27,799 nt of DNA from positions 1 through 27,799 of IMG/VR virus record IMGVR_UViG_3300036781_000068; one strand, 5' to 3'. Both the position numbers and the translations under genes were made by a program. A model generated the notes under the pieces. That model saw only the letters and a list, made by a program, of their open reading frames with translations. It searched no databases and was not told where the DNA came from. Below, piece by piece: positions 13,029-21,631 of the stretch (the first letter of the stretch is position 1; the number at the start of each line of letters is the position of its first letter). The DNA is from a virus.

Positions 13029-13808
13029 TTATCCGCTGTAGTCGGTGATCGGATATTTAGCGATCACTTCGCTCGGATTAGCGAAACCGAACATGGGCAG
13101 AAATACGAACTCGCCATTTTCATGCTCGCACATCCACTTGATGCCGGCCATTTCGGCTACGGCACAGAATCCAACGTCCCATGCGTCCCATGCGTCCCAT
13201 GCGGCCCATGCGTCCCGTGCGTCCCGTGCGGCCCATGCGGCCCATGCGTCCCGTGCGTCCCGTGCGGCCCATGCGGCCCATGCGTCCCATGCGGCCCATG
13301 CGTCCCGTGCGTCCCGTGCGGCCCATGCGTCCCGTGCGTCCCGTGCGGCCCGTGCGTCCCGTGCGGCCCGTGCGGCCCATGCGTCCCGTGCGGCCCGTGC
13401 GTCCCTCCACTCCTCAATAGTCATGGCATCGAAATGCCACCAGATGGACAGGACCGCCTTGGCGTTAGGACCAAGGATGGCTTCGGGATTGGTCAGCACA
13501 ATGCCGGGAGCGCCGTCCACGGTATCGTTGATATTGCGGAGTAGGATGGCGTGCGAGATGCTGATATTGAGCAGCTTGGCCGTTTCCAGATCGGCATCTG
13601 CTTGCGCCGCATCCATCAACCGGCGCGGCGACCAGCCGCCCATGAGATGCAGAACTTGGCCTTGGGCGCACATGCAGCCGATATCAGCGGGCGGCGCTTC
13701 ACCATCGCCGTCATAGGCGCTCTTGTCGATCAGCTTGCCTTTGTAGGGGTGGCCTTCGGGGCCATTCCAGCGGTCGAGAATTTCGGCGATGTCGGGGGTA
13801 GTGGTCAT
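13029..13808 (-). CDS. Protein with a 26-unit Trp/Arg-Asp/Ala-Ala repeat
   Basis: A 259-residue protein with three parts. Residues 1-130 are globular ([18 protein letters not shown], then [17 protein letters not shown]), a pattern seen in uncharacterised phage proteins. The next 78 residues are an uninterrupted series of three-residue units, each Trp or Arg, then Asp or Ala, then Ala, encoded by a 9-bp tandem array. The C-terminal 45 residues ([20 protein letters not shown]) are globular again. The repeat should form a long alanine-rich helix. Two ATGs occur in tandem; the second, at 13808, sits 15 nt downstream of the first base of the GAGCGAGGAA motif, as at other sites. Function is unknown. 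Confidence 0.75.
13174..13407 (-). repeat. 9-bp tandem array with two binary positions (about 26 units)
   Basis: On the plus strand the array reads as back-to-back 9-mers gcgtcccat, gcggcccat, gcgtcccgt and gcggcccgt, with only two variable positions: t or g at base 4 and a or g at base 8. I count 26 consecutive units, the outermost two degenerate (acgtcccat at the left, gcgtccctc at the right). On the coding minus strand these positions choose Asp or Ala and Trp or Arg. All other bases, including silent third positions, are constant, so the array most likely expanded recently by slippage or recombination. Confidence 0.95.
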
Positions 13809-13987
13809 CATTTTTCCTCGCTCTTTGGTAAACCTGATTTAGCGATCTCGCGCAACTCGACGGCAAGAGGTTTGTCGTTTCCGTCCAATCTAACGATGAT
13901 CCGATTCAGCGCATCACGCATGTTTTCGATCATCGTTGACCGGCGAACCTGAAACGCCTTTTGTCGCTCTGTGTTAGATAACGCCAT
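13808..13987 (-). CDS. Small basic phage protein (ERQ-type N-terminus)
   Basis: A 59-residue ORF between the small terminase and the repeat protein. The N-terminus, SNTERQKAFQVRRSTM, is close to a pattern seen at the start of many short phage proteins (an ERQ plus basic helix). The rest, MIENMRDALNRIIVRLDG and LAVELREIAKSG, looks helical. Its stop TGA overlaps the start of the repeat-protein gene, and its last codons contain the GAGCGAGGAA motif serving that gene. No ribosome binding site precedes its own ATG; instead a TTGACG element and a duplicated TATAAAC lie just upstream, so the transcript may be nearly leaderless. Confidence 0.65.
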   Translation of the reverse strand: MALSNTERQKAFQVRRSTMIENMRDALNRIIVRLDGNDKPLAVELREIAKSGLPKSEEK

Positions 13988-15874: not shown

Positions 15875-16526
15875 TTTGCCTTCTCCACTTGTCCGCATTT
15901 CGTATCCAGGTTCTCAGGGCCGCTTGCCAATCCTTGAAGCGCTTTCCCTTGGCAGTCGCATCGTCTTTGAACTGCGCCAATTCCCGATCAAACATGTCGG
16001 AGGGCCACCCGTCGATTATTTTCTGAGCAGCATCCGTCAAAGCGGGTTCAAAGTCGGCGGGAAGCGCGATCTCGCGCGTACCCCCGATAGGGGGTTCTTT
16101 CTTCTTTTCTTCTTTCTTCCCTTTTTCCCTTCCTTGTTCTGTGTCCTGCTCCTGTCCCGGTACTGTCCTCTTTTCGGTCCCGTTGAGTGTCCTGCCACTG
16201 TCCTGAATTGGCTGATAAACATCGTAATTACATATAGTTATAACAAGCAATCCTGTCTCACTGCATGTCTCTATCATAGTCTCGGTTTTGAGACGGGTAA
16301 GAAACCGCTCAACCCAGCCTTTTTGACGGTCCAAAGCCACCGCCATGTCGCGAATTGACATGGCCAACTGGCCTCGCTCAAGCACGATGATGCGGCCTTT
16401 GTAGCGAACCTTTGTCTGCCGCCATGACGCGAGCATGGTCAGCCATACGAAGGACAGAGCCTCCGATTGGTTGCGAAACGCTGGATGGTGCAGGGCGCGC
16501 CGGTGCGCGTGGACGTAGCCGCTCAT
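15771..16526 (-). CDS. Replication initiation protein (lambda O / DnaT-like)
   Basis: A 251-residue protein. Residues 1-110 look like a winged-helix DNA-binding region: SEALSFVWLTMLASWR, IIVLERGQLAMSIRDMAVAL and GWVERFLTRLKTETMI, the classic N-terminal signature of phage replication proteins. A charged linker follows (GREKGKKEEKKKE). Residues 155-220 are a helical domain with WPSDMFDRELAQFKDDATAK and FKDWQAALRTWIRNADKW, similar to the DnaT-like C-terminal domains that contact the helicase or loader. The ATG at 16526 overlaps the preceding stop (ATGA) and lacks a strong ribosome binding site. It probably binds the origin and recruits the host helicase. Confidence 0.75.
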   Translation of the reverse strand: MSGYVHAHRRALHHPAFRNQSEALSFVWLTMLASWRQTKVRYKGRIIVLERGQLAMSIRDMAVALDRQKGWVERFLTRLKTETMIETCSETGLLVITICNYDVYQPIQDSGRTLNGTEKRTVPGQEQDTEQGREKGKKEEKKKEPPIGGTREIALPADFEPALTDAAQKIIDGWPSDMFDRELAQFKDDATAKGKRFKDWQAALRTWIRNADKWRRQNGEYRNGANSIARRESGWTTVLRSVSGGDATVDG

Positions 16527-17230
16527 CGAGCCATTCTTTCAAGGCGATCAGCGTAGGCCATGCGGCCTCTCCATTGGCCATGCGGCTCAAATAGGTTTTC
16601 CCTGTCTCGCCAGTCGTATCGATGACCGTTCTGCGCGAGCGAGGTGCTGTCAGCGGACAGGAAGGGATAATCGCCAGCGACAGCGGTGCCGCGCAGCATG
16701 TGCAGCGGAGGCCAGCGGTTACCGAGCAACGCGCCCACTTCGTCCATACGGCGACGGTAGGCATCACATCCGACCGGTTCGCGCTTGGGGTCACCGATCC
16801 AGCCAAGGCAGACGCGGCTATAGCGGTCGCACAGCTTGCCGAGCCGATCTAGCGGGCCGTCCATATGCCAGACAGGCGCGCCACGATCAGAGCCGTGGGG
16901 CCAGTCGTTCAGCAGTCCGTCGTTGAGCTGGGATGGCGCGGCAGGAGCGTCGGGGATGATTGCCCAGCGGCCCGGCTCAAACAGGCGCGGTTCAAGCCAG
17001 CGGAAATAGTCCTCCCAATCGAATCGCGCTGCGTCAGTCGGATCCACACCCGCCCGCACCGCTTGCCGCCAGAAGGAGAAGGCGCCATTGTCGTACATGA
17101 CGAACGGAGCGATTGCCTCCACATCGGCGACATTATCGGGGCGGTAGAAACTCACGCAGAACGCGCGGCCTCTCATCGCCAGCAATGCGGCCTTCGGAGT
17201 CAGCGGCGTGCCATGATAGACCAAGGCCAT
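16523..17230 (-). CDS. DpdA-like 7-deazaguanine DNA transglycosylase
   Basis: A 235-residue protein resembling the phage DpdA (deoxypurine-in-DNA protein A) family, distant relatives of tRNA-guanine transglycosylase that exchange guanine in DNA for a 7-deazaguanine. Visible landmarks are VMYDNGAFSFW (Asp47), WAIIPDAP (Asp94), PVWHMD (His122), LGWIGD, LHMLRG (His177) and LSADSTS (Asp194). Two aspartates are expected in this enzyme class, one acting as nucleophile. GGGAGG about 7 nt upstream and a TAATG overlap with the QueD gene stop place it in the same transcript. The assignment is from remembered family pattern, so activity remains inferred. Confidence 0.62.
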   Translation of the reverse strand: MALVYHGTPLTPKAALLAMRGRAFCVSFYRPDNVADVEAIAPFVMYDNGAFSFWRQAVRAGVDPTDAARFDWEDYFRWLEPRLFEPGRWAIIPDAPAAPSQLNDGLLNDWPHGSDRGAPVWHMDGPLDRLGKLCDRYSRVCLGWIGDPKREPVGCDAYRRRMDEVGALLGNRWPPLHMLRGTAVAGDYPFLSADSTSLAQNGHRYDWRDRENLFEPHGQWRGRMAYADRLERMAR

Positions 17231-17541
17231 TAAGCCTCCCAGCGAACGTAAATTCGCTCGGAGGGGCGAGAAATATCAATGCGAACCGCTCCAGGTAACC
17301 GAGCCGCAATATCTCTAGCCAAGTCCTCTCCTAGACCGATGATGTTATGATCAAAATCGGCGCACGCCTGATGTAGTGCATTCTGCAAGCTGGACGCATC
17401 GTTGCACTCGGGAAACCACGCGACGATTTCATAGGTATGGCCGTGCAGACGGCCAATGGCATCTCGATGCGCACAGCAAATGAATGCACCTACGCCGGTT
17501 AACACCTTGCGGGGCGCGGATTGGTCCTGTATTTCTGTCAT
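17230..17541 (-). CDS. queD: QueD-like 6-carboxytetrahydropterin synthase, shortened
   Basis: A 103-residue member of the QueD / 6-pyruvoyl-tetrahydropterin synthase family, which acts early in 7-deazaguanine (preQ0) synthesis. His25 (CAHRD), His33 and His35 (RLHGHTYEI) match the zinc ligands, and Asp64-His65 (DFDHN) match the catalytic pair. The loop between the first histidine and the HGH is much shorter than in E. coli QueD, removing the position of the catalytic cysteine; Cys22-Cys23 lie just before His25 instead. The start at 17541 follows GGAGG by about 11 nt; a longer in-frame ORF to 17709 would overlap the methyltransferase. It lies immediately upstream of the DpdA-like gene. Confidence 0.75.
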   Translation of the reverse strand: MTEIQDQSAPRKVLTGVGAFICCAHRDAIGRLHGHTYEIVAWFPECNDASSLQNALHQACADFDHNIIGLGEDLARDIAARLPGAVRIDISRPSERIYVRWEA

Positions 17542-17569
17542 TGTCAGTCGCGCCTCCACGCGGTTGTCA

Positions 17570-17599
17570 GGGCGGGCGTCGTTGTCAGCGACCCCGCCC
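17570..17599 (-). other. Intercistronic GC-rich hairpin between methyltransferase and queD
   Basis: An 11-bp stem with one bulged base: GGGCGGG-GTCG at 17570-17581 pairs with CGACCCCGCCC at 17589-17599 around a 7-nt loop. It fills most of the 73-nt gap between the methyltransferase stop and the QueD start. No T-run follows on either strand, so it is not a typical intrinsic terminator. It may act as an mRNA processing or stability element that sets the level of the downstream modification genes. Confidence 0.55.
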
Positions 17600-17614
17600 G
17601 CTCTCCACCTTATG

Positions 17615-18607
17615 TCACTCCGCAGCATCCGCCACAAGGTCATCGGTTTCGACGGTGAATAGGTCGGGAGCGTCGCCAGCAAGCGCATCGGACTTCGCTC
17701 GAGCGACATTCTTGACGGCCTGTTTGAAATAACTGGCCTTCAACTCCACCCCAAGTCCGCGGCGACCATTCAAAACGGCGCCATAGACCTCGCTACCGAC
17801 ACCCATGAACGGGGTTAGAACCGTGTCGCCAGGATTACTCCACAGCGCAATGCAGCGCTCGATTACATCCAACTGGAGCGGGTGTACGTGTTTCTCATCT
17901 TCCGGCTCTTTTGCGGCCTTGTATGGCAACACGCGATCGATCCGGATGTCATCCCAAACGCAACTCGCGTAACGCCTCCAAATCCAGTGCGACAGCTTGT
18001 TGATGCGCTGGTCAGTTTCACCTTTGTGGATCAGCAATTCTGGCGGGACTGGCGTTGCGCCGGCATAATGATCGAACCCGGTCTCATGGGCGACGGGCTC
18101 GGCGTTATCACCATGCCGCTTGAATATCAGCACGAAGTCGCCGGCCGCGATCGTAGAATGAGTGCTATCCTTGACCAGTTGTTTGTGGGTCAAGTGCTTC
18201 AACCGCGTGCGGATGGCGACCCGCAGCGGCTCTTTCCAGATGACCACTCGGCCGAAAAAGTGAAAGCCGTGACGTTCGTGCAATTCGATGATCTTGCCCG
18301 GCAGGTCATGATACCCCCGCTTTTGGCCGGGCTGGGGAATGTCCATACAATGCACTACCGAGATGCGCCCCGGCTTGGTGACGCGCGCGAGCTCTTTAAT
18401 CAAAAACTCGTAGTGTGCGTAAAAGGCATCGTAATCGACGCTATTGGACATATCTCGATCATCGCTGCTGTAATTATACAGGCCGCAGAATGGCGGAGAA
18501 TAAACCGACAAGCCGACGCTATTCGTCGGAAACCCGGAAACCACTTCCACGCAATCGCCATTGTAAAGCGCGTAATCGTCGGTGATGATTTGATCAATCA
18601 AAGCCAT
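17615..18607 (-). CDS. Site-specific DNA methyltransferase (beta-type, N4/N6)
   Basis: A 330-residue amino-methyltransferase. Catalytic motif IV is SPPF at residues 37-40 near the N-terminus, and the S-adenosylmethionine site FMGVGSEVYGA is at 267 onward, followed by GRRGLGVELKASYF. This order (motif IV before motif I) is that of beta-class enzymes modifying adenine N6 or cytosine N4. The middle holds the target-recognition part (GKIIELHERHGFHFFGRVVIWKEP). The ATG overlaps the helicase stop by 10 nt; AGGAAAT precedes it inside a variant of the phage start motif (GAGCGAGCAGGAA). A protective role against host restriction is likely. The recognition sequence cannot be read from the gene. Confidence 0.85.
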   Translation of the reverse strand: MALIDQIITDDYALYNGDCVEVVSGFPTNSVGLSVYSPPFCGLYNYSSDDRDMSNSVDYDAFYAHYEFLIKELARVTKPGRISVVHCMDIPQPGQKRGYHDLPGKIIELHERHGFHFFGRVVIWKEPLRVAIRTRLKHLTHKQLVKDSTHSTIAAGDFVLIFKRHGDNAEPVAHETGFDHYAGATPVPPELLIHKGETDQRINKLSHWIWRRYASCVWDDIRIDRVLPYKAAKEPEDEKHVHPLQLDVIERCIALWSNPGDTVLTPFMGVGSEVYGAVLNGRRGLGVELKASYFKQAVKNVARAKSDALAGDAPDLFTVETDDLVADAAE

Positions 18608-19968
18608 TTCGGAATTTCCTGCTCGCTCGTGTGTTCGTGGAAGCGCTTCAATCCAAGCGCGTCGTTCATTTGCTCAATCATAACCTTGAACATTTCATCA
18701 GCCGCAGCCGATTTACGTTTCCGGTTTTTCACGACGCCGGCCAGCCCTTCTGTCGTGACGGAATCAACCCTGACCGCATTCTTTTGCCCGAAGCGCCACA
18801 GCCTTCGAACCGACTGGTAATATTGCTCAAAGCTGTGATCCGGAAAGTCGGTCATGTGCGAGCAATGCTGCCAGTTTAGGCCAAGCGACGTGATTTTATA
18901 TTTCGTCACCAGCTTGCCCAACTGTCCGGATTTGAACGCGATCAGCAATTCCTCTTTGCGTTCATCGCTATCCGATCCCTTGATTTGTTCGGCGCCATCG
19001 ATCGCCGCGACCAATGCATCCGCCTCTGCGTTGAGTTGGCACCATGCGACGCCGCAATCCGATGTAGAAAGGAGCTCTGCCGCCTTTTCGCATCGCGCGA
19101 TGATTGTCGCGCGGCGCTCCTCGCGTTCCTCGGCCAATCCCTTAGCGGGAACGGAAAACATCATCCCAGGACGCGGCGGACTTTCCAGAACATGCTCTTG
19201 CTCGATCAATTCCGGCAACACATACCCGTCGTCGCTGAACCCGATGTCCGAGGGCTTGCGGATGGCCCGAGCCCATGAGCAAACCCATCGCCAGAAATCC
19301 TGTTCGGCGTGATGCTTGAACCGCCACTTGGATCCCATGAACATGGGGTGGAGACTGTCCTCATCGTTTTTGAAGAACATCCCCAGCATGTCCATATAAC
19401 CAAGTTGGCCAAGCGCCTCGGATGACGTGCCGAGCTCGATGTAATCGTTAGGAGAGGGGGTGGCAGAGCATAGGAGACGGTATTTCACCATCCGCATGAA
19501 CTCGGTAATTTCCGCCTTCCGCGATCCTTCGAAATTCTTGATGCAGCTGCTTTCATCGCAAACAACCCCAGCGAAATCGACCGGATCGAATTTGTGCAAT
19601 TGCTCATAATTGGTCAGCACGATGCGCGCGCCGGGCTTCATCGTGCCGTCCCGTGATCGTTCGGCGTCGAAATCGAATTTCTCCGCTTCCTCGACCATCT
19701 GCATTGACACCATCAAAGGCGACAGGAGTAGGACAGGCTTGTTCGTGTGTCGAATGACGTTCTCGGCCCAAATCATCTCTTGGAGGCTCTTGCCCAGCCC
19801 GCAATCCTCGAAGAGCGCGGCCATGCCTTGCTCGACCGCGAACTCGACCAGCGACGATTGGAAGTCTTTCGCCTTAGGATGATGGAATGTTGGCTTGAAC
19901 CCGTATCGACCATCCAGTTGCGACTTATTGCGCACGAAGTCCGCATACGCCTCAACCTGCGATTGCAC
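18598..19968 (-). CDS. SNF2/DEAD-like superfamily 2 helicase
   Basis: A 456-residue superfamily 2 ATPase. Walker A is EDCGLGKS at residues 54-61, motif II is DESS at 138-141, motif III is LLCSATPSPND from 166, and motif VI is QSVRRLWRFGQ from 385. The fold fits phage SNF2-like helicases commonly paired with a DNA methyltransferase, as here, where the genes overlap by 10 nt. The start is a GTG at 19968 with GGAGG upstream; the gene overlaps its upstream neighbour by 17 nt. It could remodel DNA during modification, replication or recombination; no target is visible. The bacterial dpd system also includes an SNF2-like helicase, but that resemblance may be coincidental. Confidence 0.85.
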   Translation of the reverse strand: MQSQVEAYADFVRNKSQLDGRYGFKPTFHHPKAKDFQSSLVEFAVEQGMAALFEDCGLGKSLQEMIWAENVIRHTNKPVLLLSPLMVSMQMVEEAEKFDFDAERSRDGTMKPGARIVLTNYEQLHKFDPVDFAGVVCDESSCIKNFEGSRKAEITEFMRMVKYRLLCSATPSPNDYIELGTSSEALGQLGYMDMLGMFFKNDEDSLHPMFMGSKWRFKHHAEQDFWRWVCSWARAIRKPSDIGFSDDGYVLPELIEQEHVLESPPRPGMMFSVPAKGLAEEREERRATIIARCEKAAELLSTSDCGVAWCQLNAEADALVAAIDGAEQIKGSDSDERKEELLIAFKSGQLGKLVTKYKITSLGLNWQHCSHMTDFPDHSFEQYYQSVRRLWRFGQKNAVRVDSVTTEGLAGVVKNRKRKSAAADEMFKVMIEQMNDALGLKRFHEHTSEQEIPKWL

Positions 19969-20548: not shown

Positions 20549-21631
20549 CTACGTTGTCGGCATCACGACCAGCAAAGCTTCGGGCTTCGACGGCGTGGTG
20601 ATCATCATCGGTGCGCGGTTATCGACCAGCCCCAGCTCGACCGTATCCGTCTCGAGGGCGTTCAGGGCGTCGCGCAGGAACTGCGTGCGGAATGCAGCGT
20701 CAAAACCTTTCCCGACAACCTCACACGCGATTTCATCCGTTCCTTGGTCGCCAAGTCCGCGGCTTTCGATCGACAACTTATCCTTGCCGATAGTCCAGCG
20801 ACAGGTGCGGTCCTTATCATCGGCGAGGATCATGATACGACCGATAACCTGGCGCAATGCGTCTGCGTCGATCTGGATCGTGACCGGGCTTTCATCGCGG
20901 ACCACGCGAGCGACATCGGGGAACTTGCCGTCGACCATCTTGTATGTGACCGCGATATCGCCGAACTCCCACCGCATCCGCGCATCGGTCGCCGAGATCG
21001 AAATCTTGTCCGCATCCCCCGCCAGCTTGAGCAACAGCGTTACAGCTGCGTTCGGGCAAATCACGCTCGGCATTTCGCCTCCCTCGGTGATGACGCGGGC
21101 CATGCGATTGCCGTCCGTGGTTTTCAGGTGCAGCTTGCCGTCGATCCACTGATGCGAGGCGCCGGCAAAATTGATGCGCGTTTCGTCGCTGTCGGCGGCA
21201 TGGGCGACCAGTGCGAGCGCCTTGATATAATCCTCGCCGACCGTGAAAGGCGCTGCGTCGTCATCGAACGTCAGTTGCGGGAACGATCCGGCATCAATCG
21301 CACCGTAGCGCGTTTTCGACCGGCCGCATGTCATCGTCATCCAGCCATCGGCGACGCTGATCTTGACCTGCCCGCTGCCTTGGAACGTGCCGACCACGGC
21401 AGCAACCTTATCGCCTCCGACCGTGAACGCCCATATGCCTTCGCTCTCGACACGCAGACCCTTGGTGATCGCGCCATCGTAGTTTGTGCGGGTCAGTTCG
21501 GCCACGTTTCCAGTGATCGTGAACAGCACGTTTTTCAGGATCGGCTGCGTTTCCTTCGATGAGATCGAAATCTCGTTTACGGCGCGCAATGCCTTGAGCA
21601 GCGCGGATGCCTCGCATGTAAATGTCGTCAT
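20549..21631 (-). CDS. dnaN: Phage-encoded DNA polymerase sliding clamp (beta subunit)
   Basis: A 360-residue DnaN-like clamp, close to the usual 366-370. Evidence: the N-terminal LLKALRAVNEISISSKETQPILKN region with the clamp signature, LTRTNYDGAI, the domain 2 core (LHLKTTDGNRMARV), YKMVDGKFPDVARVV in domain 2/3, and MMITTPSKPEALLVVMPTT at the end. The final MPTT replaces the normal MPMRL ending, so the C-terminus is slightly atypical where clamp loaders bind. GAGCGAGGAA lies 3 nt from the ATG. It would encircle DNA and tether a polymerase, probably the host enzyme since none is visible here. It is the second gene of the leftward operon. Confidence 0.85.
   Translation of the reverse strand: MTTFTCEASALLKALRAVNEISISSKETQPILKNVLFTITGNVAELTRTNYDGAITKGLRVESEGIWAFTVGGDKVAAVVGTFQGSGQVKISVADGWMTMTCGRSKTRYGAIDAGSFPQLTFDDDAAPFTVGEDYIKALALVAHAADSDETRINFAGASHQWIDGKLHLKTTDGNRMARVITEGGEMPSVICPNAAVTLLLKLAGDADKISISATDARMRWEFGDIAVTYKMVDGKFPDVARVVRDESPVTIQIDADALRQVIGRIMILADDKDRTCRWTIGKDKLSIESRGLGDQGTDEIACEVVGKGFDAAFRTQFLRDALNALETDTVELGLVDNRAPMMITTPSKPEALLVVMPTT

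Follow-up and report, generated by a model that had tools for sequence, protein, structure and literature searches.

The adjoining QueD-like and DpdA-like genes in this phage DNA are best explained as a two-gene module for DNA base modification, in which a DpdA-type transglycosylase acts with a base-tailoring QueD-like protein on a precursor supplied by the host, and from which the neighboring helicase and methyltransferase genes are separate; we hold this explanation with about even confidence. Most likely, the DpdA-like enzyme would replace guanines of the phage DNA with a 7-deazaguanine, and the QueD-like protein would tailor a host-made 7-deazaguanine, such as 7-carboxy-7-deazaguanine or preQ0, before the tailored base is inserted by DpdA. 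FolE, QueD, QueE, and QueC would be provided by the host. The chemistry of the tailoring step is a guess, offered as a candidate only.

The window analyzed is the whole of IMG/VR virus record IMGVR_UViG_3300036781_000068 (27,799 bases), which may be part of a larger virus genome; its minus strand carries terminase, portal, capsid, and tail-type genes, as read from the open reading frames. An earlier note on this DNA had described four tandem minus-strand genes, and all four open reading frames are present: an SNF2-like helicase (18598–19968; 456 aa; motifs GLGKS, SATP, and QxxRRxxRxGQ), a beta-class N4/N6 DNA methyltransferase (17615–18607; 330 aa; motif IV SPPF), a Cys-less QueD-like protein of the PTPS fold (17230–17541; 103 aa, starting at the ATG at 17541), and a DpdA-like transglycosylase (16523–17230; 235 aa; YDNGAF, including D47, and SADST, including D194). 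Family matches for the genes of the block are far beyond chance. The helicase and methyltransferase frames overlap by 10 bases, and a 159-aa frame at the QueD-like gene is a mere upstream extension of the 103-aa one. On the same strand, the stop codon of the QueD-like gene overlaps the DpdA start codon in the sequence TAATG (17228–17232) with GGGAGG just upstream, an arrangement that suggests translational coupling of the two genes. Elsewhere in the window, a DNA polymerase III beta clamp is phage-encoded (20549–21631; PHROG 947, E 8e-57), and an array of about 26 nine-base units (13175–13405), across which several reading frames are open, lies inside a minus-strand gene (13029–13811) and encodes DAWAARDA-type repeats.

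The QueD-like protein is, by its predicted model, a PTPS-fold protein with a three-histidine metal site, yet not QueD. The model (pLDDT 94.6) yielded Foldseek matches to PTPS structures with E of about 1e-5, and superimposed on E. coli QueD (3qna) with Z 11.8–11.9. Profile searches with the single sequence gave E 0.033 for the Pfam PTPS family and 0.043 for QueD, both below the cut-offs, and the score against TIGR03367 was 14.2 bits compared to a curated cut-off of 89.25. Of the proposed QueD assignment, the fold was borne out and the profile match was not. A homologue in Caulobacter phage DMCA, likewise located beside DpdA, does score above the Pfam PTPS cut-off. Across 43 distinct relatives, H25, H33, H35, E72, and R92 are invariant, whereas D64 and H65 are each present in 38 and E95 in 42. 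The catalytic cysteine of QueD is absent from all 43, and no substitute residue is conserved in its place; the only cysteine between H25 and H33 is a stray one in a single relative (L033), away from the catalytic position.

Since the cysteine is missing in every relative, the label of a QueD-like pterin synthase does not hold if taken to mean QueD itself, and neither does the proposal that a phage QueD feeds the deazaguanine pathway. Judged from its residues, the protein should not make 6-carboxytetrahydropterin. The PTPS fold, the metal-site histidines, and the location beside DpdA would also suit a working QueD that boosts the supply of 7-deazaguanine to DpdA, but the missing cysteine and the score far under the QueD cut-off make that reading barely credible. 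In comparison with QueD (TIGR03367, PF01242), the window family shares the fold (Z about 12) and the histidine triad, but is shorter and, in our alignment, has an arginine where QueD has its pterin-binding glutamate. The best match in both sequence and structure is PH0634, a PTPS homologue from Pyrococcus horikoshii (2dj6; E 2e-4, Z 13.2), whose aligned sequence likewise lacks a cysteine before HGH; it differs from the QueD-like protein in not being phage-borne, and we know of no link between PH0634 and DpdA.

The DpdA-like protein is predicted to have the TGT/DpdA fold and carries both catalytic-aspartate motifs, in agreement with the DpdA assignment made earlier. It matched PHROG 887, annotated as queuine tRNA-ribosyltransferase (E 1.5e-31), and had relatives in 104 phage records at less than 60% identity, whereas Pfam (at E 0.1) and NCBIfam searches returned no family match, PF23859 included. 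The TGT-fold assignment rests on VIA-align comparisons of the predicted model (pLDDT 81.8), in which 208–214 residues were aligned: archaeal TGT (1iq8) gave Z 13.8 at rmsd 3.1, thereby bearing out the structural overlay that had been proposed for the 235-residue protein, and the DNA preQ0 insertase DpdA (7ui4) gave Z 13.8 at rmsd 4.5 over 214 residues. Plain Foldseek searches with this model returned barrel-fold matches only, none significant and none with E below 1e-3, and a sequence search of the PDB gave chance matches only. D47 is invariant and D194 nearly invariant across 19 relatives; on the basis of their motifs, we take them to correspond to TGT D102 and D280. The window protein thus shares the TGT fold, the catalytic-aspartate motifs, the phage setting, and the reliance on host or phage preQ0 genes with DpdA of Enterobacteria phage 9g and the DNA preQ0 insertase 7ui4 (PF23859), but differs in its size of 235 aa, its membership in PHROG 887, and its lack of a PF23859 match. 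In one relative record (L100:2559–4591), two DpdA-like genes of the same family are closely spaced.

The best structural match of all was Cap10 (9ntn; Z 14.2), level with TGT and DpdA. This match raises the alternative that the enzyme modifies tRNA or protein, as in the Cap10–CdnD complex, rather than DNA. We consider this unlikely: no CdnD-like partner was seen beside the gene, and the literature on phage DpdA indicates DNA as its target (PMC6884629). We infer that phage DNA is the substrate.

The relationship between the two genes was assessed from loci retrieved by the QueD-like alignment alone, a search that succeeded where one of viral contigs with the single QueD-like sequence found no match. 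It yielded 47 loci, some of them near-copies (L036–L080, viral, and L081–L082, bacterial). In 43, the QueD-like gene has a window-type DpdA on its own strand no more than 0.7 kb away, either upstream or downstream, and in the remaining four a different DpdA/TGT-like gene adjoins it. Two of these neighbors (L050 and L074) are PF23859 DpdA proteins, at 1e-42 or better. The other two (L042 and L082) belong to PHROG 15826, a family with no named function, and look TGT-like in the motifs AIDNGGFK, GGSTIWK or GGSTSWK, and GANS or GADS, as judged by eye. A DpdA/TGT-like gene therefore accompanies the QueD-like gene in 47 of 47 loci when these two eye-read cases are counted, and the QueD-like protein is paired with at least two, probably three, types of DpdA/TGT-like enzyme. 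It is probably a dedicated partner of DpdA with a job other than that of QueD.

Such a partner could be non-catalytic, serving DNA recognition, oligomerization, or delivery of the base, and could have retained its metal site for the sake of stability. The strict pairing and overlapping genes, the loss of the catalytic cysteine, the loss of the D64/H65 Asp–His pair in some members, and the small size of the window DpdA (235 aa) are all compatible with this idea, and we regard it as possible though doubtful. Association with several DpdA types is easier to reconcile with action on the base than with a subunit tailored to a single DpdA, and the invariant glutamate and arginine, together with the complete histidine triad, have the look of an active site. 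Base tailoring by the QueD-like protein consequently remains our preferred interpretation.

A second family invites comparison. Cellulophaga phage phiST (L034) encodes a 115-aa protein of PHROG 17812 (46838–47185), two genes away from a DpdA2-like gene. Like the window protein, it is small, has an H...HxH pattern, lacks the catalytic cysteine, and is encoded near a DpdA-like gene; it differs in keeping a V.V.E motif where the window protein has an arginine. The hhalign match between the two is weak but in register (probability 4.5%, E 0.009). We presume that the phiST family might be DpdL, reportedly a proposed 7-carboxy-7-deazaguanine decarboxylase, and treat the likeness to the QueD-like protein as a lead only. 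A literature search found no text naming DpdL in phages. Further PHROG 17812 members occur in L162–L166; in several of the phages with this family, phiST among them, the gene is near DpdA/TGT-like genes, and in L162 and L163 the domain makes up the C-terminal region of a larger protein.

The earlier note had also expected the rest of the 7-deazaguanine pathway to come from elsewhere, and dependence on the host agrees with the gene content of phages and hosts. QueC, QueE, QueF, and the VUT transporter are all absent from 18 related phage records, which may be incomplete, and are present in two Sphingomonadales host genomes; the absence from the phage records implies that the host must supply the base. 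Where one of these records shows a PTPS match, it is a single weak one, as expected from the Cys-less gene. Most hosts of phages that carry DpdA only have been found to encode the full queuosine pathway (PMC6884629). In Rhizobium phage RHph_N3_2 (L002) and Pseudanabaena phage Pam5 (L003), DpdA adjoins not a QueD-like gene but one of VUT/DUF165, a queuosine-precursor transporter family.

The remaining two genes of the block form an SNF2-like helicase and beta-class methyltransferase pair, as first described. The methyltransferase matched PF01555 (E 1.3e-16; 61.7 bits, cut-off 26.7) and PHROG 67 (E 1.4e-38), and its SPPF motif presumably indicates an N4-cytosine enzyme. The helicase matched the DNA helicase family PHROG 62 (E 7e-42) as well as PHROG 16, while its score against Pfam SNF2 (PF00176; 20.4 bits) fell under the cut-off of 24.9, as did that against Helicase_C. 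Helicase and methyltransferase match two separate parts of the single profile PHROG 16, which suggests that fused forms probably exist. A search of a defense-system library returned only general methyltransferase matches and weak helicase matches.

The four genes had been proposed to act as one protective system, with the helicase and methyltransferase working together with DpdA, and the four-gene order does recur in another record (L071: helicase, methyltransferase, QueD-like, DpdA) and in part in L027 (helicase–methyltransferase–DpdA). The wider distribution of the pair speaks against this proposal. All 19 of the closest helicase relatives have the methyltransferase in tandem, and none has a window-type DpdA or QueD-like gene within the stretches examined; moreover, the pair occurs in more than 300 phage records, chiefly from phages of Mycobacterium, Flavobacterium, and Arthrobacter, host groups mostly unlike those of the DpdA records. 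A single four-gene system is thus very unlikely, and we treat the two genes as a separate, common phage module that sometimes adjoins DpdA. The window genes match the known phage pair (PHROG 62/16 and 67) in tandem order and at 37–82% identity, and differ from it in that the known pair usually occurs without DpdA. Protection from restriction, and the coexistence of methylated and deaza bases in the same DNA, are plausible as candidate features.

In many viral relatives, the DpdA reading frame is broken, always by +1 and at one of two fixed places. Site A follows M45, in the sequence ATG-TTT-CGA, immediately before the first catalytic motif (DNGA); site B precedes S192, in CCN-TTT-CGY, immediately before the SADST motif. 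The window gene is unbroken (ATG-TAC-GAC). Breaks at site A were found in L015, L018–L023, L025, L027, L029, L041, L063, L078, L095–L097, and L186–L211, and site-B loci, which span several lineages, comprise L016/L017, L026, L028, L030, L081, L093, L160, and L212–L236. One further gene (L066) is broken at the site-B position but reads TTT-CAT. When all viral contigs were scanned, 26 of 26 matches to the site-A motif with its context were DpdA genes broken there, and 27 of 29 matches to the site-B motif were broken DpdA genes (L224 and L233 being unbroken), counts that show consistency rather than rarity because the scan patterns include DpdA codons. The site-A motif was absent from 398 genomes of one host order.

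Assembly error was considered as a cause of the breaks and rejected, as the same codon is affected in many contigs, both halves of the gene are conserved, and the collection-wide scans match broken DpdA almost exclusively. In 16 site-A genes TTT is invariant at the site, compared to 91 TTC and 57 TTT among their other phenylalanine codons, and both halves of the site-A genes are under purifying selection (pN/pS 0.33 and 0.40, with pS near 0.7). In a phylogeny built from 118 DpdA rows, well-supported branches force at least three changes at site B, with five in the fewest-changes count, and site A requires one to three. Amalgaviruses and influenza A are known to use UUU_CGN for +1 frameshifting, the ribosome moving to U_UUC_GNN (PMC6356274); a literature search found no text on frameshifts in DpdA.

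Several individual loci show further arrangements at these sites. In L021, L022, and L025, the unshifted DpdA frame remains open for another 158–196 codons and closes where a downstream QueD-like gene begins, hinting, so far as the sequence can tell, that non-shifting ribosomes might be coupled to that gene. The unshifted frame of L078 stops directly after CGA. In L032, an insert of about 350 bases (402–753) lies at the site-B position after a stop codon and gave no significant match in Rfam.

More generally, we tentatively suggest that the Cys-less QueD-like protein is an undescribed base-making enzyme serving several DpdA types, and that many sister phages control how much DpdA they make through programmed +1 frameshifting at UUU_CGN, which has evolved several times just before both catalytic motifs. 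A programmed frameshift here would, to our knowledge, be the first in a phage DNA-modifying enzyme, and gene callers would split or truncate such DpdA genes. Proteins labeled QueD that are not QueD, such as that of Caulobacter phage DMCA, would render pathway predictions based on that label wrong. That a PTPS protein without the cysteine is so strictly paired with DpdA, and with DpdA of more than one type, points to a candidate base-tailoring step.
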